Source: Salisaeta longa DSM 21114 (lineage in GTDB: Bacteria; Bacteroidota; Rhodothermia; Rhodothermales; Salinibacteraceae). From it: a stretch of DNA of 64,000 bases. The notes below the pieces were generated by a model. That model was not told the origin of the DNA, did no database searches, and saw only the letters and a program-made list of their open reading frames with translations. This document shows positions 13,696-27,843 of the stretch, one piece after another. The stretch's first letter is position 1. Each line of letters starts with the position of its first letter. A program made the position numbers and the translations under genes. The stretch is taken from positions 580,005-644,004 of the forward strand of contig NZ_ATTH01000001.1 in assembly GCF_000419585.1 (NCBI RefSeq). The letters run 5' to 3'.

Positions 13696-14427
13696 TCACA
13701 CAAACGAATAGGGCGGCCATGGCCCCACCACATCTAAGCCGTTCAAACCGGGCACCGAAAGCCGAAGCGCCTCTTGACGAAAGGACTGAGCGTGCGCGCG
13801 TTGAATTAAGAAGGCGATAGATACGACGCTATGAGCCTTCCCCGCAACGCGTTTGGGGATTGATGTCGCCACCGTAAAGGCATCGAGCGCGCTGCGCACG
13901 TCCCCAACGATGCGGTGGGTGCTCGCTGAAAGCCCCGACCGTTCGCGTTGACGCCTAAGAAGGTAAGATGTGCCTGGCCGCTCGGCGGGAGCGCGACCGT
14001 CAGGGGCCTCGGCATCGTCGGGGGCAGTATCAGCCGGAACGAGGCGCATCCGAAGGCCCATTTCGGCACATCCCTCAAGAGCGTGCAGTTGCTCACGGTA
14101 GCGTTTTCCTTGGTCTTGCAACGCGTTCATTAACGCAGCGGCAGATGGCACGCAGGTGCCAAACTGCATGGGTAGTACCGTGCCACTTACAAATGCCGAC
14201 TCAACAACGTCTTTATAGAGGAGAAGCGTTTCTACAGAAGCCTCCTTGAGCCTGTTCGTATCCGAGACGGGTGAAACGACCGCTGCGAGTAGGTCGGTGT
14301 ATACTAGGTCCACCGGTTGCTCAAAAAGCCCCAAGCGCCCTGCAAGGGATTTTCTGTTGCTAAGGGTGCGTTTGAGGCCTAGCGCGTACAGCACAAGTGG
14401 CGTATCCGCAGCAGGCATTTGAGGCAT
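13696..14427 (-). CDS. gvpF: Gas vesicle protein GvpF/GvpL family (copy 1)
   Basis: 243 residues, last gene of the cluster. GvpF/L proteins are minor components thought to act in vesicle nucleation and to bind GvpA. Family features: an N-terminal LVLYALGLK strand like the LYLYAI start of copy 3, the central VLPMQFGTCVPSAAALMNAL block and the C-terminal ending GLNGLDVVGPWPPYSFV. The next GvpF/L gene ends only 11 bases upstream. The three copies are clearly divergent from each other. F versus L cannot be told from sequence by eye. Confidence 0.85.
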   Translation of the reverse strand: MPQMPAADTPLVLYALGLKRTLSNRKSLAGRLGLFEQPVDLVYTDLLAAVVSPVSDTNRLKEASVETLLLYKDVVESAFVSGTVLPMQFGTCVPSAAALMNALQDQGKRYREQLHALEGCAEMGLRMRLVPADTAPDDAEAPDGRAPAERPGTSYLLRRQRERSGLSASTHRIVGDVRSALDAFTVATSIPKRVAGKAHSVVSIAFLIQRAHAQSFRQEALRLSVPGLNGLDVVGPWPPYSFV

Positions 14428-14438
14428 GGCAGAAGGGC

Positions 14439-15233
14439 CTAGGTCTGTGACTGCTCATTGAGCGATGGCCGAAACGTGTAGGGCGGCCACGGTCCAGAGG
14501 GCGTTAAAGAGATCCCATCGTTCGCATATGCAGCGTCAAAGGCCTCGACTTGTTTGAGAAAGGATGCCTGATTGGTGGTGGGCACCAGCAAAGCCCAATG
14601 GGTGATGGGGGCTTCGGCAGGCGACTCGGGCGTGACCGATTGACGGACGGACGTGGCCCGCGCAAGCTCACTCAGCGCTTGCTCTATCTCGGTGAGGGTA
14701 TCGTCGATCCACGCATCGAGGGCAGTGTCCGCCTGCTGCGCCTGTTGGCGGCGTTGCAAGTACGCCGTTCCCGACAGCGGCTTTTCCGCCCGAGACGCGG
14801 ATGAAAGCTGCGCGCGCGCCTTCAGGGCTTGATCGCGGTCTAGGTGCACCTTCACCGACCACTCTTCGGTACCATGAACGGTTTCGAAGAAGGAACGCAG
14901 CTTATCTTTAGAAGAGTCGATAGACTGTTTCAGCGCATCGTGTGTTGAAAAGAGTGTCGCGAAGCGAGCGGGGTACGTGGGGCCGTGCTGCATCATCGCC
15001 TCCACTACCTGCTCGTGTGCAATGGCACGAGGGGCAACCCAGGACAACGCCTGTAGATTTTGTTCGCCGGTGGTACCTGTCCACTCGTCGCACGGCACTG
15101 CATCTACGACGGCTGTCCAGTCCGCATATTGCATTGTGCGCACGGCACCCGCTACGCCCGATGCAGAAATAGACACCGACGGGGCACCGGTGATGCCGTA
15201 CAAGTACAATGCATCGTTTGGTGAAGAAGGCAT
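14439..15233 (-). CDS. Gas vesicle protein GvpF/GvpL family (copy 2)
   Basis: 264 residues with the family start DALYLYGITGAP and end ISLTPSGPWPPYTFRPS. The middle block YPARFATLFSTHDALKQSID corresponds to the LPMAFGVI-type segment of copy 3, and VKVHLDRDQALKARAQL corresponds to the central strand of the domain. It is flanked by two other GvpF/L genes, 11 bases before copy 1 and 60 bases after copy 3. Probably a minor structural or nucleating subunit. Confidence 0.85.
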   Translation of the reverse strand: MPSSPNDALYLYGITGAPSVSISASGVAGAVRTMQYADWTAVVDAVPCDEWTGTTGEQNLQALSWVAPRAIAHEQVVEAMMQHGPTYPARFATLFSTHDALKQSIDSSKDKLRSFFETVHGTEEWSVKVHLDRDQALKARAQLSSASRAEKPLSGTAYLQRRQQAQQADTALDAWIDDTLTEIEQALSELARATSVRQSVTPESPAEAPITHWALLVPTTNQASFLKQVEAFDAAYANDGISLTPSGPWPPYTFRPSLNEQSQT

Positions 15234-15293: not shown

Positions 15294-16034
15294 TTAGGCC
15301 GCGTCGTATGCTACGTCTGCAAAGCTGTACGGGGCCATGGCATCGGTATACGTAAAGGTGAACGAGTCATCAAACGTTTGGGCAGCCCTGTGCACAGCCG
15401 CCTCAAAATCTGTGATGGCGGCCTCGGAGACCAAGCACGTGAGCCGTGCGACATCGGTTTCATCGCGTACCTCGTCGATCAGTACTTCATCGCACACCGG
15501 ATGTAGGTGCGACGTGATGGTTTGCTGGTGGCGGTGGCGCTCGTCGGCGCGCAGCGCCTCGAAGTGCTCGCCTAGTTCAATTTTATCTTGGCGGCTAACA
15601 GGGCCTTGCCCTCCAAACACAGCATCGCGCTGCGTGCGAAGTGCGTCGTGACGATTGACAAAGTGGGCAAAGATGTCGTCTACGTTCCAGGTTACACGCA
15701 CGCCGATTTCTACGCGGCCTTCGAGGGCATCGAGGCGCTCAAGAAACGGTGTGGCGTGTGCTGTTAAAAAGTCACGCACCTCGGCAGCGGAGGCAGCGAT
15801 CACGCCAAAGGCCATAGGCAGCACAGTGGTGGTGGCGTGAAGGCGCTTAATCACTGCGTGGTGCACTTTTAGGTTACGGCGCCTTGGGCGGGGCGTGCCG
15901 GCAGAGATGGGGCTGCAAACCACCGACAGCCCACCGCCGTTAACAAGACGCAATGCAGCGCCTTGGATGCCGGTACGGCCGTCGGGAAGCTCCGGCGTCG
16001 CTTGGGCGATAGCATACAGGTAAAGCGAAGACAT
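15294..16034 (-). CDS. Gas vesicle protein GvpF/GvpL family (copy 3)
   Basis: 246 residues; the most canonical of the three. It starts MSSLYLYAIAQATPELP, has the typical ATTVLPMAFGVIAASAAEVRDFL, the GRVEIGVRVTWNVDDIFAHF strand-helix, and ends DSFTFTYTDAMAPYSFADV. Family members bind GvpA and are required for vesicle nucleation in other organisms. It sits between the GvpV-like gene (48 bases upstream) and copy 2. Confidence 0.9.
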   Translation of the reverse strand: MSSLYLYAIAQATPELPDGRTGIQGAALRLVNGGGLSVVCSPISAGTPRPRRRNLKVHHAVIKRLHATTTVLPMAFGVIAASAAEVRDFLTAHATPFLERLDALEGRVEIGVRVTWNVDDIFAHFVNRHDALRTQRDAVFGGQGPVSRQDKIELGEHFEALRADERHRHQQTITSHLHPVCDEVLIDEVRDETDVARLTCLVSEAAITDFEAAVHRAAQTFDDSFTFTYTDAMAPYSFADVAYDAA

Positions 16035-16082: not shown

Positions 16083-16421
16083 TCAGTAGGCATAAGAGAA
16101 CCCATCATCTTCTGCCGCAGGTGCGTCAGCAGAAGGATCATCATCTTGCTCGATGGGGGCAAGACCCACGTGTTCGCACAACGCATTGATCTTGGCGTCT
16201 ATGCGGTCAATCTCACGCGCGCACTGATCCACTTGGTTACTAAGGGCCGCCTGGATGCGCTGCTGACGTGCTTTTGCCATCTGAAGGTTGGCAATTTGCA
16301 CAAATACCTCGTGCGGTGCTTGTTGGCGGGCCGCGTTCAGACTAGACGGCGGACGGAGTGAGGGCGGGCTGGGCCGGTTAGGGCGCGGAGCAGCACCATT
16401 TGGGCGTGTTCGGTTGGCCAT
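16083..16421 (-). CDS. Small coiled-coil protein of the gas-vesicle cluster, GvpV-like
   Basis: 112 residues: a Pro/Arg-rich N-terminal tail (residues 1-35), a helical heptad-like core (VFVQIANLQMAKARQQRIQA followed by VDQCAREIDRIDAKINALCE), and an acidic C-terminal tail (EQDDDPSADAP). The core is reminiscent of small GvpV-type accessory proteins that carry a LxxLxxEKARLxxE helix, but the match is from memory and weak. It lies between gvpN and the GvpF/L genes, which supports a gas-vesicle role. Confidence 0.5.
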   Translation of the reverse strand: MANRTRPNGAAPRPNRPSPPSLRPPSSLNAARQQAPHEVFVQIANLQMAKARQQRIQAALSNQVDQCAREIDRIDAKINALCEHVGLAPIEQDDDPSADAPAAEDDGFSYAY

Positions 16422-16497: not shown

Positions 16498-17460
16498 TCA
16501 ACGGCCGGCAGAACGCAGGACCGTTTCCACAGCATCGTGGATGTGAGATGCTACATCGGCCGATGGGTCGGTTAACAGAGAGCGGCGGCTGGGACGCAAA
16601 ACATCGACGCAGGCAGCTCGAAATAGCGCGTTGGAGGCGTCGATGGCCTCCGTCCGGTCTGCAAAAATGCGAGCAAGCGCAATGGCCGGGCGAATCGACG
16701 GGCCGCGTTTCAACAGGCGGGCCTCGCGTAAGGTGCGCACAATATCGACGATGCAGGCCGCGTCCGTCTCGCTTATGCCAGCACGCGATTGTACAATGTC
16801 AACCTCAGCCGAGCGGCTCTGAAATTCCAGTTGAATAGTGATGAGGCGGTCGAGGAGCGCATTTTGCGACTTGTGCGTACCGGCATATTCTTCGGTGTTC
16901 GACGTAAAGATCGCGCGGAAGTTCGGGTGTACACGAATGTAACCGGTGCCCTCGCCAGCGCGAGACGGAAGGTTCAGTATGCGCTCTTCCAGAATGCTAA
17001 GCAGCACATTGTTGGCTTCGGCGCGTGAGCGGGTAAACTCATCGTAGATGAGAGTATATCCTTTGCGGCATGCCGTTGCCAGTCGGTTATCTTCCCAGAG
17101 GCGTTTCACCTGCTCGTCGGTCTTAAGGACCGAGCGAATAAAGTTGTCTACAACTTTAGACTTCCGGTACCCCACTTCTCCTCCTACCAAGTCGCTTCGT
17201 CCAAATTCGTCGTCGCCGTGCAAGAGTACAGCCGGCTGGTCGAGCTGTGCAGCGACATGAAAAGCGAGGCTGGTTTTGCCGGTACCCGCCACGCCGCTAA
17301 AGTGCACGGGGTAGCCCGCGTCCATATACGCCAATGCTCGGGCCGTCGTCCGTTGTACTTCCGGCGTCTGTACAAAGGAACGGCTAGGCACCGGCAAGAA
17401 GGCACCGTCCGTCTTCTGCGTGTGGATGGTTGTGGGCGTATGTTCTACGGCCTGTCGCAT
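16498..17460 (-). CDS. gvpN: Gas vesicle AAA+ ATPase GvpN
   Basis: 320-residue MoxR-type AAA+ ATPase that promotes gas-vesicle assembly or growth. Walker A is GVAGTGKTS at 56-64; Walker B is LIYDEF at 137-142; sensor-like FTSNTEEYAG follows near 210. GYPVHFSGVAGTGKTSLAFH and GRSDLVGGEVGYRKSKVVDN are characteristic of GvpN. It is 168 bases downstream of gvpA; the gap carries an inverted repeat that could lower expression of gvpN relative to gvpA. Confidence 0.95.
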   Translation of the reverse strand: MRQAVEHTPTTIHTQKTDGAFLPVPSRSFVQTPEVQRTTARALAYMDAGYPVHFSGVAGTGKTSLAFHVAAQLDQPAVLLHGDDEFGRSDLVGGEVGYRKSKVVDNFIRSVLKTDEQVKRLWEDNRLATACRKGYTLIYDEFTRSRAEANNVLLSILEERILNLPSRAGEGTGYIRVHPNFRAIFTSNTEEYAGTHKSQNALLDRLITIQLEFQSRSAEVDIVQSRAGISETDAACIVDIVRTLREARLLKRGPSIRPAIALARIFADRTEAIDASNALFRAACVDVLRPSRRSLLTDPSADVASHIHDAVETVLRSAGR

Positions 17461-17628: not shown

Positions 17629-17853
17629 CTATTGCGACGCCGGTGAGGCCGCCATCGCCGTCAGGCCAATGCCTTCGGCATACTTCAGGTATGTTTCGAC
17701 GGAGGCCACAACAATGCGCGCTTCAACGGAAACGAGTTCGATGCCCACCAACGAAACCCGGGCAAAAACATCGATGACGATTCCTTTGTCGAGAATGCGA
17801 TCAACAACTTCTGCCAAACCGCTTGCGTCTGTAGACTTTTGGACTTCAGCCAT
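17629..17853 (-). CDS. gvpA: Major gas vesicle protein GvpA
   Basis: 74 residues, the usual size of the structural shell subunit that forms the gas-permeable rib wall. The amphipathic core matches the family: [20 protein letters not shown], then [20 protein letters not shown], and [14 protein letters not shown] at the C-terminus. There is a single copy of canonical gvpA here; two further GvpA-superfamily genes (J and M/S types) lie upstream. A candidate promoter lies 90-115 bases upstream, so gvpA can be transcribed independently of the genes before it. Confidence 0.97.
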
Positions 17854-18134: not shown

Positions 18135-18539
18135 TTACCTTTTTTCCGGGTCGGGGGGATCCGTGTCGTCCGTTCTGTCCTGGTCAAGCGCATCGCTGAG
18201 GCGCGCAATTTGAGATTCTAGACGCTGCATGCGGTCATCAAGCGATTCAAGGCGCTGCGCCGTTTCAGCGCGCGGGGGGGAGGCCTCAGGATCGTTGGAG
18301 CTAAGGCGCCCATGATTGGCCGTTAGGTAATCGGCATGCCGCCACCAATCCATGCCCATCTCCTGGGCCTTATCCACCGAGCAAATGATGAGTCTGATTT
18401 GTATGGTAAGCAGCTCTACGTCGTTAAGGTTCACGCGGATGTCTCCGGCGACGACAATGCCAGTTTCCAGCACGCGCTCCAAGATGTCGGCGAGGGTATC
18501 GGAATTGGCGAGCGACGTACGGCGAGAAGAACGAGGCAT
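18135..18539 (-). CDS. gvpJ: Gas vesicle protein GvpJ-type
   Basis: 134 residues from the ATG at 18539 (MPRSSRRTS); a further ATG upstream would add an atypical leader. The GvpA-superfamily core is present: LADILERVLETGIVVAGDIR and VNLNDVELLTIQIRLIICSV, then DKAQEMGMDWW, which is typical of GvpJ. A 60-residue acidic C-terminal extension contains a short coiled-coil (RLESLDDRMQRLESQIARLS). GvpJ is a minor shell or nucleation component. It follows gvpK by 81 bases. Confidence 0.9.
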   Translation of the reverse strand: MPRSSRRTSLANSDTLADILERVLETGIVVAGDIRVNLNDVELLTIQIRLIICSVDKAQEMGMDWWRHADYLTANHGRLSSNDPEASPPRAETAQRLESLDDRMQRLESQIARLSDALDQDRTDDTDPPDPEKR

Positions 18540-18620
18540 GGCGGAGACGTAAGCAAAACGATAGAAGAACAATATTGGCGGCGGTTGCTGGTGTCAAGCA
18601 CAACAGCCCGCAAGCGGTGC

Positions 18621-18905
18621 TCACTCCATAGCACTGGTTTCAATAGTGCCCAGCGGGAGCGACAAGTCAGACGGACTGAGGTCGAACACCTCACACAAGT
18701 GCTCGATCTCTGCGGCTTGCTGTTGTAGCGCCTGGCCGAGCCGCTCAATTTCGTCATCGGTAAGCGTGCCATTGTCCATACGCCGAAGGGTTTGTTTTTC
18801 CAGCAGCTCATGGATCAGATTGATTACCGATAGCACAAGGTGGGCAAGACCGTTTGTGGTCGTGCCATCCGTTGTATTGGAGGGAAACGTGGGGTCATCA
18901 TTCAT
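18621..18905 (-). CDS. gvpK: Gas vesicle protein GvpK
   Basis: 94 residues. Family blocks: NGLAHLVLSVINLIHELLEK, RRMDNGTLTDDEIERLGQAL and the C-terminal DLSPSDLSLPLG. GvpK is required for vesicle formation in several organisms; its exact role is unclear. It sits between the M/S-type and J-type GvpA-superfamily genes, a common order in gvp clusters. Confidence 0.93.
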   Translation of the reverse strand: MNDDPTFPSNTTDGTTTNGLAHLVLSVINLIHELLEKQTLRRMDNGTLTDDEIERLGQALQQQAAEIEHLCEVFDLSPSDLSLPLGTIETSAME

Positions 18906-18963: not shown

Positions 18964-19206
18964 CTAGCCATTGGAAGGGGGCGCGGATGGTGAGGCATCG
19001 GTGTTGTCCGCATGATGCGGCGGGTGGGGGGCTTTAAGTGCGGTATCCACAGCGCTCACCAAAATGCGTACATCCAGGTACATCAGGTCAACATCCGCAA
19101 CGGTAAGTACCAAATCGCCACGGAGCACAGCGCCCTTATTCATGATGCGATCCAACGCTTCGGCAAGTTCGGTAGTGCGTGGGCGGTTAGGAGGAGCAGG
19201 GGGCAT
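18964..19206 (-). CDS. GvpA-superfamily minor protein (GvpM/GvpS-type)
   Basis: 80 residues from the ATG at 19206 (MPPAPPNRP). The core ELAEALDRIMNKGAVLRGDL and VLTVADVDLMYLDVRILVSA resembles the GvpM/GvpS branch of the GvpA superfamily, which lacks the [11 protein letters not shown] of GvpA itself. An acidic, Pro/Ser-rich tail follows. Probably a low-abundance subunit used for nucleation. It starts 23 bases after the ArsA-like gene stops, so the two are likely co-transcribed. Confidence 0.85.
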   Translation of the reverse strand: MPPAPPNRPRTTELAEALDRIMNKGAVLRGDLVLTVADVDLMYLDVRILVSAVDTALKAPHPPHHADNTDASPSAPPSNG

Positions 19207-19228: not shown

Positions 19229-21106
19229 TCATATTCGCGGAAATAGGTCGCGGCCGAGCTTCTGACAGGCCGATCGGCTGTCCGGCGGAGCACCTTCATG
19301 CACCACAGCGTGCGAAAGCGCTGCGTGACAGCGCCGGTAGTGATTCAAAACAACCGCATGCCTTGCGCGTCGCTTGGCCGCGGCATCCGTTGCGGCTACG
19401 CGGTTGATTACGAGAGGTCCTACCGGCAGGCCCAACGAGTGTGCGCGCTCGATCAGTGTTTCTGTTTCTGCGGCAGCTACCTCTGTTGGAAGGGTGACTA
19501 CCAGCAGCGTTGTTTCTTCTGAGCGCCGCATGTTCTTCTGCAATCGTTTGACCTGTTTCGACAGGTGTACCAGCCGGTCGGTAAGGCGCGGAAGATGGAG
19601 CACCGTACGGTACTTGCGCAAGATGCGGAAAAATGCTCGAATCCAAGATGCAAAGGCCCCCGGCATCTCTAGCAATCGCAGCAAGTGGCCCGTTGGAGCT
19701 GTATCTACAACACATGTAGTATACGGACGCTCGTCCATAAAATCCATGAGTGCCACGAGCCCCATCACCTCATCAATGCCGGGCGGCGCGAGATCCATGA
19801 GCGCGTTCATCACGGGCCGATCGTACGTGAGGTCGACGTCGGCGCCGCCTGTTCGATCGAAGAATTGACGAACTGCCTGTGCGTAGCGGCTGCGTAGCGA
19901 TTCAAACTGGGCCTCGGCGTCAATTTCGCAGGCCCAAAGCGTTTGTCCAATCGGCCTGGGGGTATGTTCTAAGGATTCGTCGAGCAACGAATGCAAGGAG
20001 TGGGCTGGGTCGGTAGAGGTCAGCAAAACGGGCCGGTTGGGAGTGCCCGCCGTTTCGGCCAACCGAAGAGCTGTTGCGGTAGCCATAGTGGTTTTGCCCA
20101 CCCCGCCCTTGCCGCCTACAAACACGAGAGAGCCCCGCGGGCATGCCACACTGAGGGACACCTTGGGCGGATGAGGCGGTGTCGTTGTAGGGGCAGACGC
20201 GATGCGGTCATAGGGTAAACGGGTTGTGTCTGACAACAAGTTGCGCAACCGCGCCGGCCCGCGCGGTTCTGGGTCGACAGCAGGTACAGTCCATACCGCA
20301 GACTGCCCTTGCACCGCCGAATGGTTTGCGAACGCCTTCAGACGCTGCCGGCCACCACTCGGTGGCCACTGGTTGAAAATGATATCTTGCACAACGATAT
20401 CGGCCATTTGAAGCTGTTGCACGATATGCTGCGTCTCGTGCAAGACGAGCGGTTCGGCTTGCGCAACGACGAAGAAACGGCACAGCGCCTCATCGCGAAA
20501 TGCATCACGCACGCGCTCCGCTTTGCTAAACATAGCGGCAACAAAGTCGTCCAGCGTATCGGATGCTCCGTTCCCAAACACCGACCGCATATAGCGGTGC
20601 TTGTCTAGCATCACGTCAAGCACGTTGACCCACGCACTAAACTGGTCGGGCGTATGAAGCAGCCGAAGTGTGTGACCGGTGGGAGCGGTGTCGACGACGA
20701 TGACACCATCGTCATCGTCCGCAAGCAGGTCGGCCAACCGTATAAAGGCCATCATCTCGTCGAGCCCCGGAAGCGACAGATCCAACAGACGCTCAATGTC
20801 GGTCGCATCGAAAAGGGTGCCCAGCCGAACAATTTCATGAAGCGTGGCGCGATGGGCCGCACGAAATGCGTCGAGCGCAGTATCGGCGCTGAACTCCTCT
20901 ACGGTCAGTGTATCTGGAAGCGCCGCTTCAGCCAAGCTGTCGCGCAGAGAGTGCGCCGGATCGGTCGACAGGAGGCGCACCGGGCCCTCATCTGCAAGCC
21001 GCAGGGCAGTAGCGGTCGCGATGGTCGTTTTGCCAACCCCGCCCTTACCGCCAAATAAGAGAAGTGCCGGGAGTGGAGCGGCGAGTGAAAAGGGCAGATG
21101 GTTCAT
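19229..21106 (-). CDS. Tandem ArsA/Get3-type ATPase in gas-vesicle cluster
   Basis: 625 residues made of two ArsA/Get3 ATPase halves. Deviant Walker A GGKGGVGKTT occurs at residues 19-28 and 331-340. VVDTAPTGH (the A-loop/switch II signature) occurs at 137-145 and 466-474. STDPAHSL occurs in both halves. Both nucleotide sites look intact. No arsenite-resistance genes and no obvious ArsA metal-binding Cys set are nearby. Get3-family proteins shield and deliver hydrophobic tail-anchored segments. In this operon, 20 bases after gvpG, a chaperone role for GvpA-family subunits is a reasonable inference, not proven. Confidence 0.9.
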   Translation of the reverse strand: MNHLPFSLAAPLPALLLFGGKGGVGKTTIATATALRLADEGPVRLLSTDPAHSLRDSLAEAALPDTLTVEEFSADTALDAFRAAHRATLHEIVRLGTLFDATDIERLLDLSLPGLDEMMAFIRLADLLADDDDGVIVVDTAPTGHTLRLLHTPDQFSAWVNVLDVMLDKHRYMRSVFGNGASDTLDDFVAAMFSKAERVRDAFRDEALCRFFVVAQAEPLVLHETQHIVQQLQMADIVVQDIIFNQWPPSGGRQRLKAFANHSAVQGQSAVWTVPAVDPEPRGPARLRNLLSDTTRLPYDRIASAPTTTPPHPPKVSLSVACPRGSLVFVGGKGGVGKTTMATATALRLAETAGTPNRPVLLTSTDPAHSLHSLLDESLEHTPRPIGQTLWACEIDAEAQFESLRSRYAQAVRQFFDRTGGADVDLTYDRPVMNALMDLAPPGIDEVMGLVALMDFMDERPYTTCVVDTAPTGHLLRLLEMPGAFASWIRAFFRILRKYRTVLHLPRLTDRLVHLSKQVKRLQKNMRRSEETTLLVVTLPTEVAAAETETLIERAHSLGLPVGPLVINRVAATDAAAKRRARHAVVLNHYRRCHAALSHAVVHEGAPPDSRSACQKLGRDLFPRI

Positions 21107-21126: not shown

Positions 21127-21372
21127 CTACGACTCAAGCGACGCGTCTATCGCATGAAGCTCATCGAGACGGTCAAGTATTTCTTCCTCGCGCGCGTCGA
21201 ACGTCTCTTCTTCTATCATTCCCATATCGAGTTGCATGTATAGGTCGTTTAGCTCGTCGCGCAGCGCGCGCTGTTCGCTCTCGATATGGTCTTCCGCTGC
21301 ATCATGAACGGCCTGCGCGATAAATGCAACGCCACGAACGGGAGCAAGCAAAATGTCATCAATTAAGAACAC
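21127..21372 (-). CDS. gvpG: Gas vesicle protein GvpG
   Basis: 81 residues, the usual size. It starts MFLIDDILLAPVRGVAFIAQ, characteristic of GvpG, followed by an acidic helical region ELNDLYMQLDMGMIEEETFD and EEEILDRLDELHAI. GvpG is a minor component thought to act with GvpF/L in nucleation. It is directly upstream of the ArsA-like gene with a 20-base spacer. Confidence 0.94.
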   Translation of the reverse strand: MFLIDDILLAPVRGVAFIAQAVHDAAEDHIESEQRALRDELNDLYMQLDMGMIEEETFDAREEEILDRLDELHAIDASLES

Positions 21373-21504: not shown

Positions 21505-22485
21505 CTACGACTGCTTTCGGACTTCCAGCTTCGCCTGCTCAATCCACGACTCAACATCTGCAAAGGAGGGCAAGCCATCCATGAGTTCTCGGAGATCCTC
21601 AGGCGTTAGGTCGGCCAGGTCGTCGAACGTGACAACCCCGGCTTGGCGCAAACGAAACGCCATTTTGGGCCCTATACCCTTTATGGCGGCAAGGTTGTCA
21701 AAGGTACGGCTCGAACTGGATTCTTCATGACGGGTACTCCCAGAGGTGTCTTTGGGATCGGCAGAGGACGCCGCCGACGGGTTCGAAGAAGCAGTGTCTT
21801 CCGTAGCGGAGGGTGCTGCTGCACTCTCCGATGCTGTAGCTTGCGCTCCTCCCGGGGCTGTTGCGTCATCGGCCGTCGATGACGAATCCTGGCTCGTTGC
21901 TGATGCGGCGGATGATGCCGACGGCTCGGTGGACCTGCTGGGTGCGGAGGACTGTTTCGTATCGGCGGGCCGCGAAGCGGTGTGCTGATGGTGGCGAGCG
22001 GTGCGGGCTTCAGCCAGAAGGGTGCGCACCGAAACGCGGACGCCGGACAAGAACGCGCGCCGCGCGTTGGCCGCGGCCTCCTTACGTTGGCTCCGTTCGC
22101 CTTCCATGTCTTTCATGAAGTCCCGGACCTCCACGCGCAAGTTTTCTACGAAGGCTTGTGCTTCCCTGACCGCTTCGGCCCGATCTGCCCGGTTCGTTTG
22201 CGCCGCCTCAACGCGTGCATCTCGATACGTTTGAAGCGACGCAGCCACTCTGCTGCTCAACGCTTTCACTTCCTGCTGCAACTCGTTCAAATACTCGCGA
22301 CGTTGCGCCTGCAGTTCGTTTGCTGCCCCGATGCGCTCATCACGAAAGGTATGCAGAAGGTCTTCTACCGCTTCCCCAATCTGGTGTACGTCCTCTCGGA
22401 TGGTGCCTAAACGCTCTCTCTGTAGATTCCGAGCAGCCGCAAAATCCTTACGAAGTTGCTGCATCTGGTCAGCGAGCTCTTGCAT
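21505..22485 (-). CDS. GvpC-like repeat protein fused to a helix-hairpin-helix domain
   Basis: 326 residues. Residues 1-170 are Glu/Arg/Ala-rich helical repeats of roughly 33-40 residues (for example RDARVEAAQTNRADRAEAV then VENLRVEVRDFMKDM, and RKEAAANARRAFLSGVRVSV then RTLLAEA). This resembles cyanobacterial GvpC, which clamps the outside of the vesicle. A Ser/Ala/Thr/Asp-rich linker (about 175-260) follows. The last 62 residues are a HhH fold: IKGIGPKMAFRLRQAGV, TFDDLADLTPEDLRELM and FADVESWIEQAK. The fusion is unusual for GvpC. The HhH part could mediate protein or DNA contacts. Confidence 0.7.
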   Translation of the reverse strand: MQELADQMQQLRKDFAAARNLQRERLGTIREDVHQIGEAVEDLLHTFRDERIGAANELQAQRREYLNELQQEVKALSSRVAASLQTYRDARVEAAQTNRADRAEAVREAQAFVENLRVEVRDFMKDMEGERSQRKEAAANARRAFLSGVRVSVRTLLAEARTARHHQHTASRPADTKQSSAPSRSTEPSASSAASATSQDSSSTADDATAPGGAQATASESAAAPSATEDTASSNPSAASSADPKDTSGSTRHEESSSSRTFDNLAAIKGIGPKMAFRLRQAGVVTFDDLADLTPEDLRELMDGLPSFADVESWIEQAKLEVRKQS

Positions 22486-22536
22486 GATTACAGCTGGGAA
22501 AGATGAAGGTGCTATCGAGTCGGGAGTATGTATCGA

Positions 22537-23301
22537 TTAAGCAGCTTCGTGGGCATCTTCGAGCACAGAGGTGCCCAACGATTCCGACTTGGAGAAGCGC
22601 TGCGCGATCGATTGTAGCTTATGCTTCTGCTGATAAAAGGTACGCTCTACGGCCCGCAGACGCAAGCGCAACTGCTCGTTTTCTTCTTCGAGCGCCTCGT
22701 TTTCCTTCTGAAGCACCTCGTTTTCTTTCTGTACGTCGGGGCGGTGCTTTGCAAGATCGCGCAAAGACGACCGTAGCGCCTCAAGCGCTTGGTCCGGCGT
22801 CACCGCGTCCTCCGCTGTGCTCAGGTTGGCGGCATCCACATCTGGCTTCGAGGGGTCGGCCCAGAGCTCAAGCCGCAACTCGTCGAGCGCAGATTGTAGC
22901 ACACGCAGGGCCTCTTCCGGGGGCAAATTGTTGATGCCTGATGCCGGAACGGTTGTAGATTGGGACGGGGCTTGAGCCTTTTTTTCTGGAGCGCCTGCTC
23001 CGTACATCATGCTGCGGATTTGATCGAGCGCCTCCATAACCTCGCCGGTAACGGAAAGATGCTCGCGCGCTTGCTCCTTCTGATCGGCCTTCAGGGCGTG
23101 TATCTGCTTGCGCAAAGTTGCGATGGTGCCTACCGCATCGCCGATCTGTTCAACGCCGAGTGCCTGCAATCGCTTGTGCACATGGTAATGCGCCCGAAGC
23201 ACGCGCTTCATCGTGCGGATTTGTTGCAGTGCGCCGTCAGGATGCTTGGCGCCAAGCTCGCGGCATAGGATCTCGGAAACCGTGTGAGGGGAAGCAGACA
23301 T
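22537..23301 (-). CDS. Coiled-coil protein of the gas-vesicle cluster
   Basis: 254 residues from the ATG at 23301 (MSASPHTVSEI); an upstream ATG at 23376 overlaps the end of the PYP gene and is less likely. N-terminal 70 residues (CRELGAKHPDGALQQIRTMK, then ALGVEQIGDAVGTIATLRKQ) share the LGxxxPDxA...IRxM pattern with the repeats of the 1037-residue protein upstream. C-terminally there is a canonical coiled-coil with repeated ENE-L heptads (QKENEVLQKENEALEEENEQ). No enzyme motif. It is probably a structural or scaffold partner of the large protein. Confidence 0.75.
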   Translation of the reverse strand: MSASPHTVSEILCRELGAKHPDGALQQIRTMKRVLRAHYHVHKRLQALGVEQIGDAVGTIATLRKQIHALKADQKEQAREHLSVTGEVMEALDQIRSMMYGAGAPEKKAQAPSQSTTVPASGINNLPPEEALRVLQSALDELRLELWADPSKPDVDAANLSTAEDAVTPDQALEALRSSLRDLAKHRPDVQKENEVLQKENEALEEENEQLRLRLRAVERTFYQQKHKLQSIAQRFSKSESLGTSVLEDAHEAA

Positions 23302-23365
23302 GAAACCGCGTAGGTTGATGGAAGGGACATGTGTGCGCTCGCTAGACCCTACAAGCATGTTGCAG

Positions 23366-23905
23366 TTACACGCCACGCTTGCGTATCAAGATCCAATTGC
23401 GTCCTGAAGCGTCGCCACACATGCGCACATCAACGAGCGTTGGACGCATCTTGTACGTAAAAGTGTAAGTAAACGACTTGTCCAGGTTGCCGCTCCGGAT
23501 GCCTTCCTTAAACCTTCCGTAGAAGATACGGTTGTTGCTGCAAGGGGCCAGCTCGGTAAAAAAGTTTTTACCGTGCGCCTCTTCCGGTTCGATGCCCGCG
23601 AGATCCGATTCGTACTGATTGTAAAACGAAACGATGCCTTCGTTGTCAACCCTCACAATGCCGAAATCGGCTGCATGGAGTTGCTCCTCGCTGGCTTGGC
23701 GAAAGGTTTTTGTTATGTTTGGGCTATCAAAGGTAACAAGGGGGCGGGGGCCGGACCGGTCTTCCTCGGAGGCATGCTTTGAAGACGGCGGACGAGCTGC
23801 GCGTCGCTCAGCGGGAGATTCGCCCCCAGAGGCTGTAGACTCCTTTGTTTGTTGAGGAGAAAATCCTTTATCTTTGAGAAAGCTGTACAGACTTTGCGTG
23901 GACAT
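23366..23905 (-). CDS. pyp: Photoactive yellow protein (PYP) with N-terminal extension
   Basis: 179 residues: a 55-residue Ser/Glu/Arg-rich extension, then a full PYP-type PAS domain. Relative to Halorhodospira PYP numbering, Tyr42, Glu46 and the chromophore Cys69 align with Tyr95, Glu99 and Cys122, with identical spacing (Y to C 27, E to C 23 residues). Blocks GKNFFTELAPCSNN and FYGRFKEGIRSGNLDKSF are near-identical in pattern to PYP. Thr50 and Arg52 are replaced by Ala103 and Ile105, which may tune colour or kinetics. In the family the Cys binds p-coumaric acid and gives a blue-light photocycle. The chromophore genes (tyrosine ammonia-lyase, coumarate-CoA ligase) are not in this window. Confidence 0.93.
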   Translation of the reverse strand: MSTQSLYSFLKDKGFSPQQTKESTASGGESPAERRAARPPSSKHASEEDRSGPRPLVTFDSPNITKTFRQASEEQLHAADFGIVRVDNEGIVSFYNQYESDLAGIEPEEAHGKNFFTELAPCSNNRIFYGRFKEGIRSGNLDKSFTYTFTYKMRPTLVDVRMCGDASGRNWILIRKRGV

Positions 23906-23945
23906 ATGATCGCACCGACGTTAAGATGGCATGGCTTCACGCAAT

Positions 23946-23951
23946 ATTATA
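23946..23951 (-). promoter_or_regulatory. Possible pyp promoter -10 box
   Basis: Minus-strand TATAAT about 40 bases before the PYP start, in the 288-base gap after the large coiled-coil gene. The -35 region is not convincing. It suggests pyp may have its own promoter. Confidence 0.35.
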
Positions 23952-24019
23952 TGATCCAAAACTGTGCCAGCATGGGGATGCAAGAACGTGCGCTGCCGGT
24001 GTCTAGGTGTTGTTCTGTT

Positions 24020-24039
24020 CCGCTGTATGCCTACAGCGG
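24020..24039. terminator. Hairpin between the large coiled-coil gene and pyp
   Basis: Perfect 8-bp stem CCGCTGTA / TACAGCGG with a 4-base loop, within the gap between the large gene stop (24194) and the PYP start (23905). It could terminate or attenuate read-through into pyp. Confidence 0.4.
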
Positions 24040-24193
24040 TTTCTGGGGCATATGCCGCAATTTCCAACCGGCATTTGAGTCCCAAACGAGGCAAGGGTCT
24101 GACGGTGCGTTGCGAGGGCGCGTGGGCTCTTTGAAATAAATTACATCTTACATGAATAAAGCACCCATACAGAGGCCATAGTGCGAGGCAACG

Positions 24194-27100
24194 CTACATA
24201 GCTTCGAACAGCAGCCAGTTGGCTCTTTCATCGCTCGAACGGTACAGGTGCACGGTAAGAACGACCGGTGCGCGTCCGGGGCTGATGAACGTGTACGGGA
24301 AGCATGCGTCCATTGCCTTTTGTTGAACTCCTTTTTTGAAGCGCCCCAGGAATAAACTGTTTTTGGTGCTTGGGGCGAGGTCATCAAAAAAGTTTTTACC
24401 TGTCAGCGTCGTCTGGTTGTCCGCCTCTTTTAAACCAGGGAGCGAAAGAGCGTTCTCGTTGACAAACTGTATGCGTCCTTGATCGCTCAACTTAATGACC
24501 CCATAGGGAAGTGCGTCTAGGGCCGTGCTGTCGAGGGCGTCGAGCTGCTCAAGCGTTGCACGTTCGGCAAACTGCGGGGCGGCCTGGAAGACGAAGCCCG
24601 TGCCGTCACCGGACGCGTTGCGTTGCGTGCCCGAAGCGTCTGTTGATGATCCTGCGTCCTTCAAAGCACGCTCCTTAAGCAGCCGCACCCGGCTCACCAA
24701 TTTATCAAGGTCATCGGTTCCAATGATGCTTTCTATCCGCCGCAGCCACAGCTGGTACGTACCCTGTTCGCGCTGAAGCTGTTGGATGCGTCGTTCGAGG
24801 GTTTCAATTTCTGCAACGGCTTCGTCAATGCTGGTCATGCCTTTCGCAAAGAGCAGTTCTTTTGCTTCGTAAAAGGCATCAAGCTGCTCTTGCATGCTTT
24901 GCATCATGAGCTCGGTGTCTTCGTCGTTGAGGCTCTCGCCGTCATCGCCCGTCGTCCACTCGTCATACGGACGGCCTTCAGTCATGGAGTACACCTCCAT
25001 GAGCTGAGTAGAAAGCCCCTGGACCATCTCAACAATGGCATCGGCCGACGAGACGCCGATTTCGCGTTCTAGCAGCTCTTGTTCCGCGTAGAACGCCTCA
25101 AGCTGCTCGAAGTTATCTTGGCCCATGTCGTGTCTGTCAACGCGCCGCTGCACATTTTCTTTGTCCATGTACATTTCTTGCAGCTGCTGTTGCATGCTGT
25201 TTACCATGTCGATGGCATCAGCCACCGAGCGGACGCCGAGTTCTTCCAGGCGTTCTTGCTCGGTTTGCAGAATGTCTAGCTGCTCCTTCATGCGCAGCAC
25301 CTGTTTTGAGAGCTGCGACGCGTCTTTGGCGGTGCTCACGTTCAGCGCTTCTCGTATGTGGTGGAGGTGGCGCTTCGCCTTGCGAAGGGTGTTGCGCTCA
25401 TCTTTCAGCGCGCGAAGACGGTCGCTGGTGCGGTCGATAAGGTCGTCCAGCTGCTCGGCCGGTGGTTGCCCATCGCGCTGCAGCGAAGCGTTGCCTGCAT
25501 CCAGCAAGGTGTTGGTGTGGTTGCTGAGCGCCTGAATGCCCGCCATGAGCGTTGATGCCTGTGCAGGAGGGGCTCCCAACCGCTTGCCAAGGTGGTTCAG
25601 GGCTTCAGCAACCTCCGGGGCGTCGTCTAACACAAGCGCAGATGCTGGAGTCGCCCCGGAGGAGGCTTCCGAACGATCTATGTTCCTGTATAAATCTACC
25701 AGTTGCTCTTCCATGCTATCGATCATAGCAAGCGCAGCATCCACGTCACTGATGTTATGATGCTGCAGTTTTTCCTGCTCTTGCGCGAGGTGCTCCATCC
25801 GGGCTGTAACATTGTGCACCAAAGCTTCCAATTCGCGCGCCTGCTCTGGGGTCGTAACCCCAAGGATTTCATGAACTTCGTCCGTAACTGCTGTAGAGGA
25901 AGGGGGATTGTCTAGCGCATCATTCTCCAGCGCATCATTCTCCTCTTCATCCACTGTCAGGTACAAGTCCACCAGTTGCTCCTCCATCGTATCGATGAGC
26001 GCCCGCATGGTCGGTGCGTGAGAAGAAGATTCATGGGTTGCAGCAGGTTCTGGTGTTTCCAACAGCGCGTGAATGTGCGTACCCATGCGGTGCAGCTGCT
26101 CGCGCAGCGCGCGCGCTTCGTCGGGCGTATGTGCACCCAGGATGTGCTGTATTTCCTCAAGAACGGCATCAGACGCGGCTGACGAAGCCTCCAGATCTGC
26201 CTCTCGCTCCTCATAAAGAGCAGCGAGCTGCTCTTCCAGGCTTTGTATCATGGTAAGTATGTCGTCGGCGTCTTCTAAGCCGGTTTCATTGGAGAGATGC
26301 TTCTTGTGATTGGAAAGGACGTGCAGGTTATCGGACATGCGTCGCACCGTTTGGGCGAGAGCGTCGACCTCTGCCGCATTCGACACGCCAAGAGTGTCCT
26401 CTATAACCTTTGGAAGCGTCGCGTCCCCTTGGTCGCGCTGCTCGTAAAGGTCTACGAGCTGCTGCTCCATGTTTGTAATCATGTCGAGCAGGTCGTCGGC
26501 TGTGTCGACGCCTACCTCCGCGGTGATCTGCTCCTTTGCGGCCAGCAGGTCATCAAGGTGGCGTTGCATGCCTCGCACCTTCTGGGCTAGGTTACGTGCC
26601 TCCTCGGGCGTGCGTATCCCAAGGACAGACGTGGTGGCGTCGAGGAGGGCGCGGGTCTCTTTATCAATGGAGCGCGTGCGCAGCGCATCTCGCTCTTCGC
26701 GTAATGTATCTACTTGCTCTTTTAGGGTTGCGCGTTCTTTCGTCAGCCGGTCTACACGCTCGCGCAGGGCCTGCTGTGTCTGTTCGGCTTCGTTTAGACG
26801 TTCCTGCAGCGCATGGATCTCGTCCAGGGCCTCTTCGGTGCTCGACCAGCCAGCTGCTGCAAGGCGCTCTTTTTCATCATACAGAGTCTCAACTTGTCTT
26901 TGCAGGCTCTCAACACGTGCTTGCACTTCCTCCAGGCTATTCACGTCAAGGTTGTCCATCAGTTGGTTGACCTCAACGTGAAGCGTATCCATCTCGGATG
27001 CACTGCCCTCAGCTTCCAGGCGCTCTAATAGGGCCGCATTGCGATCGCGGAGCGTTTCGAGCTTGTGCTGCATTCGTTGCAACACTTCCTCAACGTCGTA

Positions 27101-27307
27101 TACGCTCACCAGGCCATCGGAAGAGGCGTGGGGGGCCTCGGGGTCCGGCACGTTTGTTTGAGCGCGTAGCATGCGCACCTTGGTGACTACTGCATCAGGC
27201 GAATCCGCGCCAAGCATTTCGCACAGCTGCTTCCAGGGTTTTGTGGAGGATGCGCTTTCACTTGAATGGTTGGGATGGGGCGTACTCGAATCGTGCTGTG
27301 TAGCCAT
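24194..27307 (-). CDS. Large repeat coiled-coil protein with C-terminal PYP-like PAS domain
   Basis: 1037 residues from the ATG at 27307 (MATQHDSST); an upstream ATG at 27403 would add an unlikely leader. Most of the protein is coiled-coil built from about 75-100-residue units: an LGxxTPEEARxLxxxVxxM helix followed by a DDxLxMIxSMEEQLVDLY helix. At least eight copies of the second motif are visible (for example MEQQLVDLY, LEEQLAALY, MEEQLVDLY twice, MQEQLDAFY). The last 125 residues are a PYP-like domain (GVIKLSDQGRIQFVN, GKNFFDDLAPSTKN, FLGRFKKGVQQKAM). The chromophore Cys is Ser, and the Tyr42 and Glu46 positions are Val and Ala, so it should not bind p-coumarate. First gene of the cluster. 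Confidence 0.85.
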   Translation of the reverse strand: MATQHDSSTPHPNHSSESASSTKPWKQLCEMLGADSPDAVVTKVRMLRAQTNVPDPEAPHASSDGLVSVYDVEEVLQRMQHKLETLRDRNAALLERLEAEGSASEMDTLHVEVNQLMDNLDVNSLEEVQARVESLQRQVETLYDEKERLAAAGWSSTEEALDEIHALQERLNEAEQTQQALRERVDRLTKERATLKEQVDTLREERDALRTRSIDKETRALLDATTSVLGIRTPEEARNLAQKVRGMQRHLDDLLAAKEQITAEVGVDTADDLLDMITNMEQQLVDLYEQRDQGDATLPKVIEDTLGVSNAAEVDALAQTVRRMSDNLHVLSNHKKHLSNETGLEDADDILTMIQSLEEQLAALYEEREADLEASSAASDAVLEEIQHILGAHTPDEARALREQLHRMGTHIHALLETPEPAATHESSSHAPTMRALIDTMEEQLVDLYLTVDEEENDALENDALDNPPSSTAVTDEVHEILGVTTPEQARELEALVHNVTARMEHLAQEQEKLQHHNISDVDAALAMIDSMEEQLVDLYRNIDRSEASSGATPASALVLDDAPEVAEALNHLGKRLGAPPAQASTLMAGIQALSNHTNTLLDAGNASLQRDGQPPAEQLDDLIDRTSDRLRALKDERNTLRKAKRHLHHIREALNVSTAKDASQLSKQVLRMKEQLDILQTEQERLEELGVRSVADAIDMVNSMQQQLQEMYMDKENVQRRVDRHDMGQDNFEQLEAFYAEQELLEREIGVSSADAIVEMVQGLSTQLMEVYSMTEGRPYDEWTTGDDGESLNDEDTELMMQSMQEQLDAFYEAKELLFAKGMTSIDEAVAEIETLERRIQQLQREQGTYQLWLRRIESIIGTDDLDKLVSRVRLLKERALKDAGSSTDASGTQRNASGDGTGFVFQAAPQFAERATLEQLDALDSTALDALPYGVIKLSDQGRIQFVNENALSLPGLKEADNQTTLTGKNFFDDLAPSTKNSLFLGRFKKGVQQKAMDACFPYTFISPGRAPVVLTVHLYRSSDERANWLLFEAM
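25913..25942 (-). repeat. 15-base tandem duplication in coiled-coil gene
   Basis: AGCGCATCATTCTCC occurs twice in tandem and encodes the duplicated acidic segment ENDALENDALD in the inter-repeat linker of the large coiled-coil protein. It suggests recent slippage in a linker. Confidence 0.6.
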
Positions 27308-27843
27308 TGGCTTGTGCGTTTGGGTAGAAAACTTGTGGCCGCTGGTTAAGCCCGCATCTGGGTGCGACTGGCTGCTTCTGGGTGCGATTAACTGTGCCCA
27401 CACCGATGGCCACGCGGCGTGCTAGCGGTGTCGTATGCGTTGCTGGAGCATTGGGGTAATGCTTCCGCTACAGCTGCAACGTAGGGGTTTTGAATACAAG
27501 GAGCATAGGTGCTGGCCGATACCCGCTCAAGCACCGGACCGATGCATGGGCAGCAAGTGGGTAGCAATCATCAGCGTACGGGATTGTCGCTTCCAGTTTA
27601 CAATAAACTACAACAAAAAACATACCTTCTCAGCGTTCGCTTCTATATTAGAATTTTCTGCCCACCGGATGAGGGGGCATGTGAATGCCCAAGAAGCTGT
27701 TGGGCGAGCGTCAATTAATGAGGATTGATCATCAGATCGCTCCGTCTTCTTAGGCGCACCCTCCTCTTGGAACAGAGGCGGCGGGCAGAAGGGGCGTAGA
27801 GAAGTGCTTGCCGAATCGTCTTAGCGACACACTTCACAGTGCG

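Follow-up and report, generated by a model that had tools for sequence, protein, structure and literature searches.

A tandem Get3/ArsA-type ATPase in a bacterial gas-vesicle gene cluster is probably a dedicated assembly factor

The window, by which we mean the whole stretch of 64,000 nucleotides analysed here, contains a gas-vesicle (gvp) cluster of 15 genes, all on the minus strand and running from position 27403 down to 13696. Among them lies the gene of a tandem (pseudo-dimer) Get3/ArsA-type ATPase at 19229-21106 (minus strand, 625 aa, ATG start), an open reading frame that agrees with the preliminary description of this DNA. PF02374 matches both halves of the protein (313 bits, cut-off 24.3), and the four motifs that had been described as complete are all intact, with P-loops GKGGVGKTT at residues 20-28 and 332-340 and DTAPTGH at residues 139-145 and 468-474. 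The model TIGR00345 (TRC40/GET3/ArsA) gives 321 bits against a curated cut-off of 135, placing the protein in this superfamily, while ParA/MinD models give 20-47 bits. On the other hand, the arsenical pump equivalog TIGR04291 reaches 170 bits against a cut-off of 650, indicating that the protein falls outside this equivalog.

Immediately upstream of the ATPase, at a distance of 20 bases, is GvpG (21127-21372, minus strand; PF05120, 68.7 bits), and downstream is a GvpS/GvpM-type protein of the GvpA family (18964-19206, minus strand; PF00741, 47.9 bits), for which we chose the ATG at 19206 as the start within an open frame extending to 19299. Both neighbours and the first of the two gaps were correctly given in the preliminary description; the second gap measures 22 bases rather than 23. 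The cluster continues on the minus strand with GvpK (18621-18905; PF05121, 94.5 bits), a GvpJ-type protein of the GvpA family (18135-18572; PF00741, 54.1 bits), the main shell protein GvpA (17629-17853; PRK09371, 122.9 bits, cut-off 100) and the AAA+ ATPase GvpN (16498-17460; TIGR02640, 327 bits, cut-off 266.8). Three GvpF/L genes close the cluster, the first at 15294-16034 (PF06386 and a profile match), the second at 14439-15233 and the third at 13696-14427 (each with NF045778 below its cut-off and a profile match), and all three are on the minus strand. Between GvpN and GvpF/L, also on the minus strand, lies a small coiled-coil protein (16083-16421) which is kept in the clusters of three relatives (L034, L035 and L036) and may be an accessory Gvp that has diverged.

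Upstream genes on the same strand (21505-27403, minus) belong to the same gene run: an HHH-domain protein (21505-22485), a coiled-coil protein (22537-23376), a PAS protein (23366-23905) and a coiled-coil protein of 1069 aa (24194-27403), which has no Pfam match at 0.001 and is built with repeated units ending in MEEQLVDLY-like motifs. Relatives of the 1069-aa coiled-coil protein and of the small PAS protein also adjoin the gvp cluster of L034 (13044-18900). Queries for ArsD, ArsB, Acr3, ArsR and ArsC found no match within the 64,000 nt of the window, bearing out the earlier observation that arsenic genes are absent from the neighbourhood, and the sole match to arsenite ArsA queries was the tandem ATPase itself, which matched weakly.

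The preliminary description had proposed a survey of gvp clusters for ArsA/Get3 neighbours. We carried it out by GvpA protein alignment in named genomes, keeping the 80 best-matching gvp loci out of at least 548; this sample is biased to GvpA near that of the window. Both GvpG and GvpK are present in 39 of these 80 loci, and in 26 of the 39 clusters a tandem ArsA of 628-704 aa sits directly after GvpG and before GvpS/GvpK/GvpJ. Among the taxa represented in the 26 clusters are Acidobacteria, Planctomycetes, Verrucomicrobia, Bacteroidetes and a number of proteobacterial groups; the clusters are not independent, some methylotroph loci being close relatives. The tandem form is also found inside a gvp cluster of different gene order on a Nostoc plasmid. 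It is missing in the other 13 of the 39 clusters drawn from the same 80 loci. These 13 mostly keep the same gene order and form a natural set for asking what replaces the ATPase.

Mapped on a GvpN tree, presence and absence of the ATPase require nine changes by parsimony, at least four of which are forced by starred branches, and presence is hardly more clustered than in shuffled data (58 and 46 of 500). The gene thus comes and goes among gvp clusters, gain and loss being indistinguishable on this tree.

We searched 24 of the genomes behind the gvp loci, 11 with and 13 without a tandem in the cluster, for other members of the family (PF02374 at 1e-15). In eight of the 11 tandem-bearing genomes the halves of the gvp tandem are the only matches at this threshold, while two also carry an ArsD-linked ArsA and one a further single-domain form. 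Eight of the 13 genomes without a cluster tandem show no match at all to PF02374 at 1e-15, suggesting that, as far as the genes tell, vesicles can be made without ArsA and in general would not need an ATPase of this type. Three others have an ArsA beside ArsD and one has a divergent pair of fragments. The last of the 13, a Burkholderiales MAG (G434), carries a gvp-type tandem far from gvp genes (L235:8717-10720), with none of them within about 8 kb, and its own gvp cluster (L174) is without the ATPase. This orphan groups with the tandem of L175; its placement is possibly a binning error. Genomes having both kinds of protein keep the arsenite ArsA with ArsD, as a protein distinct from the gvp-type, and Get3d-like single-domain ATPases are present as separate genes in the gas-vesicle genomes surveyed.

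In the window's own family the full-length tandem profile matches four of 27 genomes at 666-791 bits, all four of them GvpA-positive, and gives nothing above 167 bits in the remaining genomes. A fifth GvpA-positive genome (G024), whose gvp stretch lies at a contig end, has no full-length tandem match. Given the 26 of 39 clusters and this co-occurrence with GvpA, the placement of the gene in the slot is more than chance. Its recurrent place among gvp genes and its association with GvpA mark the window's ATPase as a component of the gas-vesicle cluster.

In further families of the phylum, which appear to be green sulfur bacteria and their relatives, the ATPase is instead a single-domain protein of about 312 aa encoded after GvpJ. 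This form was found in 10 of the 19 genomes whose 20 gvp stretches we examined; among the nine genomes lacking it, two (L108 and L111/L112) are represented by contigs that break off. Across the phylum sample, scored on the top five candidates of each genome, the single-domain profile (A3) matches 24 of 394 genomes at 384 bits or more, namely 24 of 37 GvpA-positive and 0 of 357 GvpA-negative genomes (Fisher p 2e-29, ignoring kinship). The same holds in the family of G146, where all or nearly all candidates were scored: 14 of 23 GvpA-positive genomes have the single-domain form as against 0 of 63 GvpA-negative ones (p 2e-10), and in several of the nine GvpA-positive genomes that lack it, GvpA is seen at contig edges only. 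Within the G176 family, GvpA occurs in nine of nine genomes and the ATPase in eight, and in seven of these eight the ATPase is on a contig other than any GvpA match; six unlinked sites examined there have no gvp genes within about 9 kb. The ATPase is therefore confined to GvpA-positive genomes even where it is unlinked, following vesicles without linkage to their genes.

To compare the ATPases with arsenite pumps we used the three arsenite cysteines of E. coli ArsA, C113, C172 and C422, with numbering taken from PMC2963123 and our own mapping to alignment columns. Cysteine occupies one column in 18 of 18 arsenite halves and the other in nine of nine arsenite N halves, being kept in all nine arsenite proteins, while it is found in none of 40 gvp halves and none of seven gvp singles, nor in the window's ATPase. 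The gvp proteins (20 tandem and 7 single) instead have Gly at one arsenite column in both halves and are varied or gapped at the other.

A different pair of cysteines is found in much of the gvp clade. A CxxC at the Get3 position, just after a conserved Asn, occurs in 13 of the 20 N halves, in 12 of the 20 C halves and in two of the seven singles, as against 0 of 18 arsenite halves, and the archaeal Get3 proteins 3zq6 and 3ug6, used as a check of position, have CEFC or CDFC there. The zinc-binding motif is lost in the window's lineage, including the window's ATPase, as well as in L120, L124 and Nostoc. In Get3 the CxxC binds the zinc of the dimer interface, although some working Get3 proteins are without it (PMC10248533, PMC11170914).

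The helical insert of the gvp forms is likewise Get3-like in length: the stretch from TGH to the conserved Asn has medians of 100 (gvp N halves), 93 (gvp C halves) and 100 (gvp singles), compared to the shorter 86 and 74 of arsenite halves. The post-switch-II helix of the gvp forms bears a signature, W-x(8-12)-[KR][YHD][RKN], shared by all 27 N halves, 18 of the 25 C halves and all seven singles but by none of 38 other sequences, a pattern which is descriptive since it was written from these same sequences after 11 rows without a plain switch-II match had been dropped. Mean hydropathy after switch II, considered as a sign of a client groove, does not tell gvp and arsenite proteins apart.

For the phylogeny the half-domains were analysed separately in three trees, one quick and two careful, with the very long-branched Nostoc rows left out of both careful trees. 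All gvp-type sequences, whether tandem N halves, tandem C halves or singles, fall into one clade, with support of 98 in the quick tree and of 100/98 and 100/99 in the two careful trees. ArsD-linked arsenite halves form another (100/100), and the Get3d-like single-domain ATPases are a separate clade (100/100). In a tree of a subset of rows that includes the sequences of solved Get3 and ArsA1 structures, the gvp clade falls on the Get3 side of the branch that leads to arsenite ArsA (100/100): it joins Chlamydomonas ArsA1 and fungal Get3 (95/96), with archaeal Get3 next to them. A grouping with cysteine-bearing arsenite ATPases, which the preliminary description had set down as decisive against a chaperone, did not occur in the trees; by the AU test, gvp and arsenite clades as neighbours are not rejected (p 0.315, 4.8 log units worse).

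Holding gvp and arsenite N halves together, or their C halves together, was rejected (p 0.0001 and 0.0002), and with it a tandem ancestor shared with arsenite ArsA. The gvp and arsenite fusions therefore arose independently. The two halves of Chlamydomonas ArsA1 are sisters (100/100), which on these sequences makes it a third independent fusion. Grouping the single-domain form with the tandem C halves was not rejected by the AU test (p 0.245).

An AlphaFold2 model of the window's ATPase (A2; pLDDT 85.3, pTM 0.83) supports a closed pseudo-dimer. Its best whole-length structural match is closed arsenite ArsA (Z 30.7, 3.2 A, 515 residues), and the C half matches archaeal TRC40/Get3 (Z 30.3, 2.6 A, 274 residues). 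As both families match, the comparison of folds is not decisive between ArsA and Get3.

The association of ArsA with gvp operons is already known and was published in 2010. In that year Castillo and Saier described ArsA homologues with two domains from the gvp operons of four phyla (their clusters 4 and 6), observed that these proteins lack the three arsenite cysteines and put forward the idea that the ATPase supplies energy for one of the steps by which vesicles are formed (PMC2963123). Those homologues have the same architecture and context as the window's ATPase; the gvp-linked forms described there are two-domain, whereas here single-domain and unlinked members join the same clade. The parts of PMC2963123 that we consulted contain no mention of a Get3 CxxC, a kinship with Get3 or a chaperone role for the gvp ATPase. 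ArsA was also grouped with eight gas-vesicle proteins in a cyanobacterial co-evolution study (PMC5464585), and in Nodularia an ArsA gene, nsp15480, follows the gvp genes nsp15380-15470, an adjacency inferred from the locus tags (PMC3610870). Our literature search did not find gas vesicles and Get3 treated together, and gas vesicles with tail-anchored proteins came up only through a reference title. New here are the slot in 26 of 39 clusters, the single gvp clade, the independent origin of the tandem, the CxxC and insert of the clade and the single-domain form confined to GvpA-positive genomes.

Among known systems, Get3/TRC40 (archaeal 3zq6 and 3ug6, fungal 3ibg) has the fold, P-loop, switch II and insert length in common with the gvp ATPase, and the CxxC at the same place in most gvp relatives, but the window's protein differs in being a tandem fusion without CxxC. 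The gvp ATPase is not known to have a tail-anchored client or a Get1/Get2-type receptor. Chlamydomonas ArsA1 (5zme), the best PDB sequence match of the window's ATPase, is likewise a tandem pseudo-dimer on the Get3 side without CxxC, although it stems from a separate duplication and has a different cellular task; it carries hydrophobic tail-anchored clients (PMC11170914). Arsenite ArsA (1f48, 9nbw and the ArsD-linked loci L198, L200 and L232-L234) is alike as a tandem ATPase and in overall fold but differs in its cysteine site, its ars neighbours, its shorter helical stretch and its separate duplication. The Get3d-like single-domain ATPases, which we name after PMC10248533, are also bacterial and Get3-like but belong to a separate clade.

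A dedicated role in gas vesicles rather than in arsenic resistance, as suggested in the preliminary description, is well supported by the slot, the gvp-specific clade, the co-occurrence with GvpA and the lack of arsenite cysteines, and we hold it with high confidence. We propose that the ATPase is probably a dedicated Get3-like assembly factor that serves as chaperone for GvpA-family subunits. The chaperone role is likely because of the CxxC of the clade, the Get3 length of the insert and the placement near Get3 and Chlamydomonas ArsA1; for the mechanism itself, with its predicted binding of clients, we consider the case evenly balanced.

In this mechanism a covalent pseudo-dimer of the Get3/ArsA fold, with two complete nucleotide sites, would take the place of the zinc-clasped Get3 homodimer, and the window's lineage may have lost its CxxC because of this replacement. 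ATP binding would close the two halves, as in Get3, so that the helical subdomains form a shared cleft shielding a hydrophobic segment of a GvpA-family subunit and keeping the subunit fit for assembly. The clients of the ATPase might be the products of the neighbouring genes, GvpS, GvpJ and GvpK, or else GvpA; hydrolysis would then open the dimer, and the subunit would pass to GvpF/L, to GvpG or to the shell as it grows. GvpS, GvpK and GvpJ are a proposed seeding set, and GvpF and GvpG have been suggested as chaperones of GvpA (PMC11445434). The position of the ATPase beside gvpS, gvpK and gvpJ fits an action on that set, and next to GvpF and GvpG it could add an energy-driven step. Several points count against a chaperone: 13 of 39 clusters are without the ATPase, the window's protein has no CxxC, hydropathy does not discriminate, the AU test leaves a neighbour relation with arsenite clades standing (p 0.315), the best whole-length structural match is arsenite ArsA, and GvpF and GvpG are already proposed for the task. 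More tentatively, we envisage a bacterial GET-like pathway to a protein-walled gas organelle, in which a Get3 relative, a pseudo-dimer in most lineages, would capture GvpA-family subunits after synthesis and hand them over, gated by ATP, at the site of nucleation or growth.

A different task within the vesicle system, which we regard as unlikely, would be quality control or remodelling of the shell, where the ATPase, with GvpN and a CDC48-like ATPase, extracts or recycles failed Gvp subunits or keeps them soluble, rather than delivering new ones. The dispensability of ArsA agrees with such a task, as does the company that the gene keeps: a CDC48-type double-AAA ATPase comes directly after the single-domain form in nine of the 10 clusters carrying that form, a CDC48-type gene is present in 36 of the 80 gvp loci (the best 80 of at least 548) and in three of six regions with an unlinked gvp-type ATPase such a gene is 2-3 kb away. 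However, clusters without ArsA have the CDC48-like gene about as often (10 of 13) as clusters that carry ArsA (17 of 26), and no CDC48-type gene is found among the window's ORFs. We think it improbable that the fold is used in a ParA/MinD-like manner, positioning, partitioning or nucleating vesicles with no hydrophobic clients involved. The gvp ATPase shares the deviant-Walker class with ParA/MinD, whose profiles do hit the window's ATPase weakly, but their 20-47 bits stand against the 321 bits of TIGR00345, and the clade has a helical insert of Get3 length and a CxxC at the Get3 position.

We think it just as improbable as a ParA/MinD-like use that the ATPase serves membrane proteins in general, as a Get3-like holdase or targeting factor, and is merely co-regulated with vesicles. 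The Get3 CxxC is implicated in general chaperone activity, a second and oxidation-regulated function (PMC10248533), yet a general factor would sit poorly with an ATPase confined to GvpA-positive genomes even when unlinked (0 of 357 GvpA-negative genomes). An efflux ATPase for arsenite or another oxyanion, present among gvp genes by chance, is suggested by the Pfam and NCBI names and by the whole-length fold match to ArsA. We rejected the arsenic pump on its cysteines, neighbours and equivalog score and consider it highly improbable: the arsenite cysteines are absent, the window has no ars genes, TIGR04291 gives 170 against 650, the slot is conserved, and the ArsD-linked ArsA that some gvp genomes also carry is another protein.

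The question of how so hydrophobic a shell protein avoids aggregation and enters the growing vesicle matters also where vesicles are expressed to act as acoustic reporters. If the assembly-factor reading is true, an ATPase that is Get3-like and dedicated to vesicles would offer a tangible candidate for the chaperone, extending Get3 function from membranes to a protein organelle, and annotations that file gvp ATPase genes under arsenic, such as that of Nodularia nsp15480, would be corrected.

Examples of the CDC48/VAT-type genes are L104:9932-12079, with a CDC48_N and two AAA domains, L098:8211-10379 and L199:7835-9676. In two acidobacterial members of the tandem family, L132:14652-16631 and L123:13659-15647, the switch-I Asp of STDPAHS in the C half is replaced by Gly (STGPxHS), and the C half of these ATPases may, judging from this replacement, be catalytically weak.
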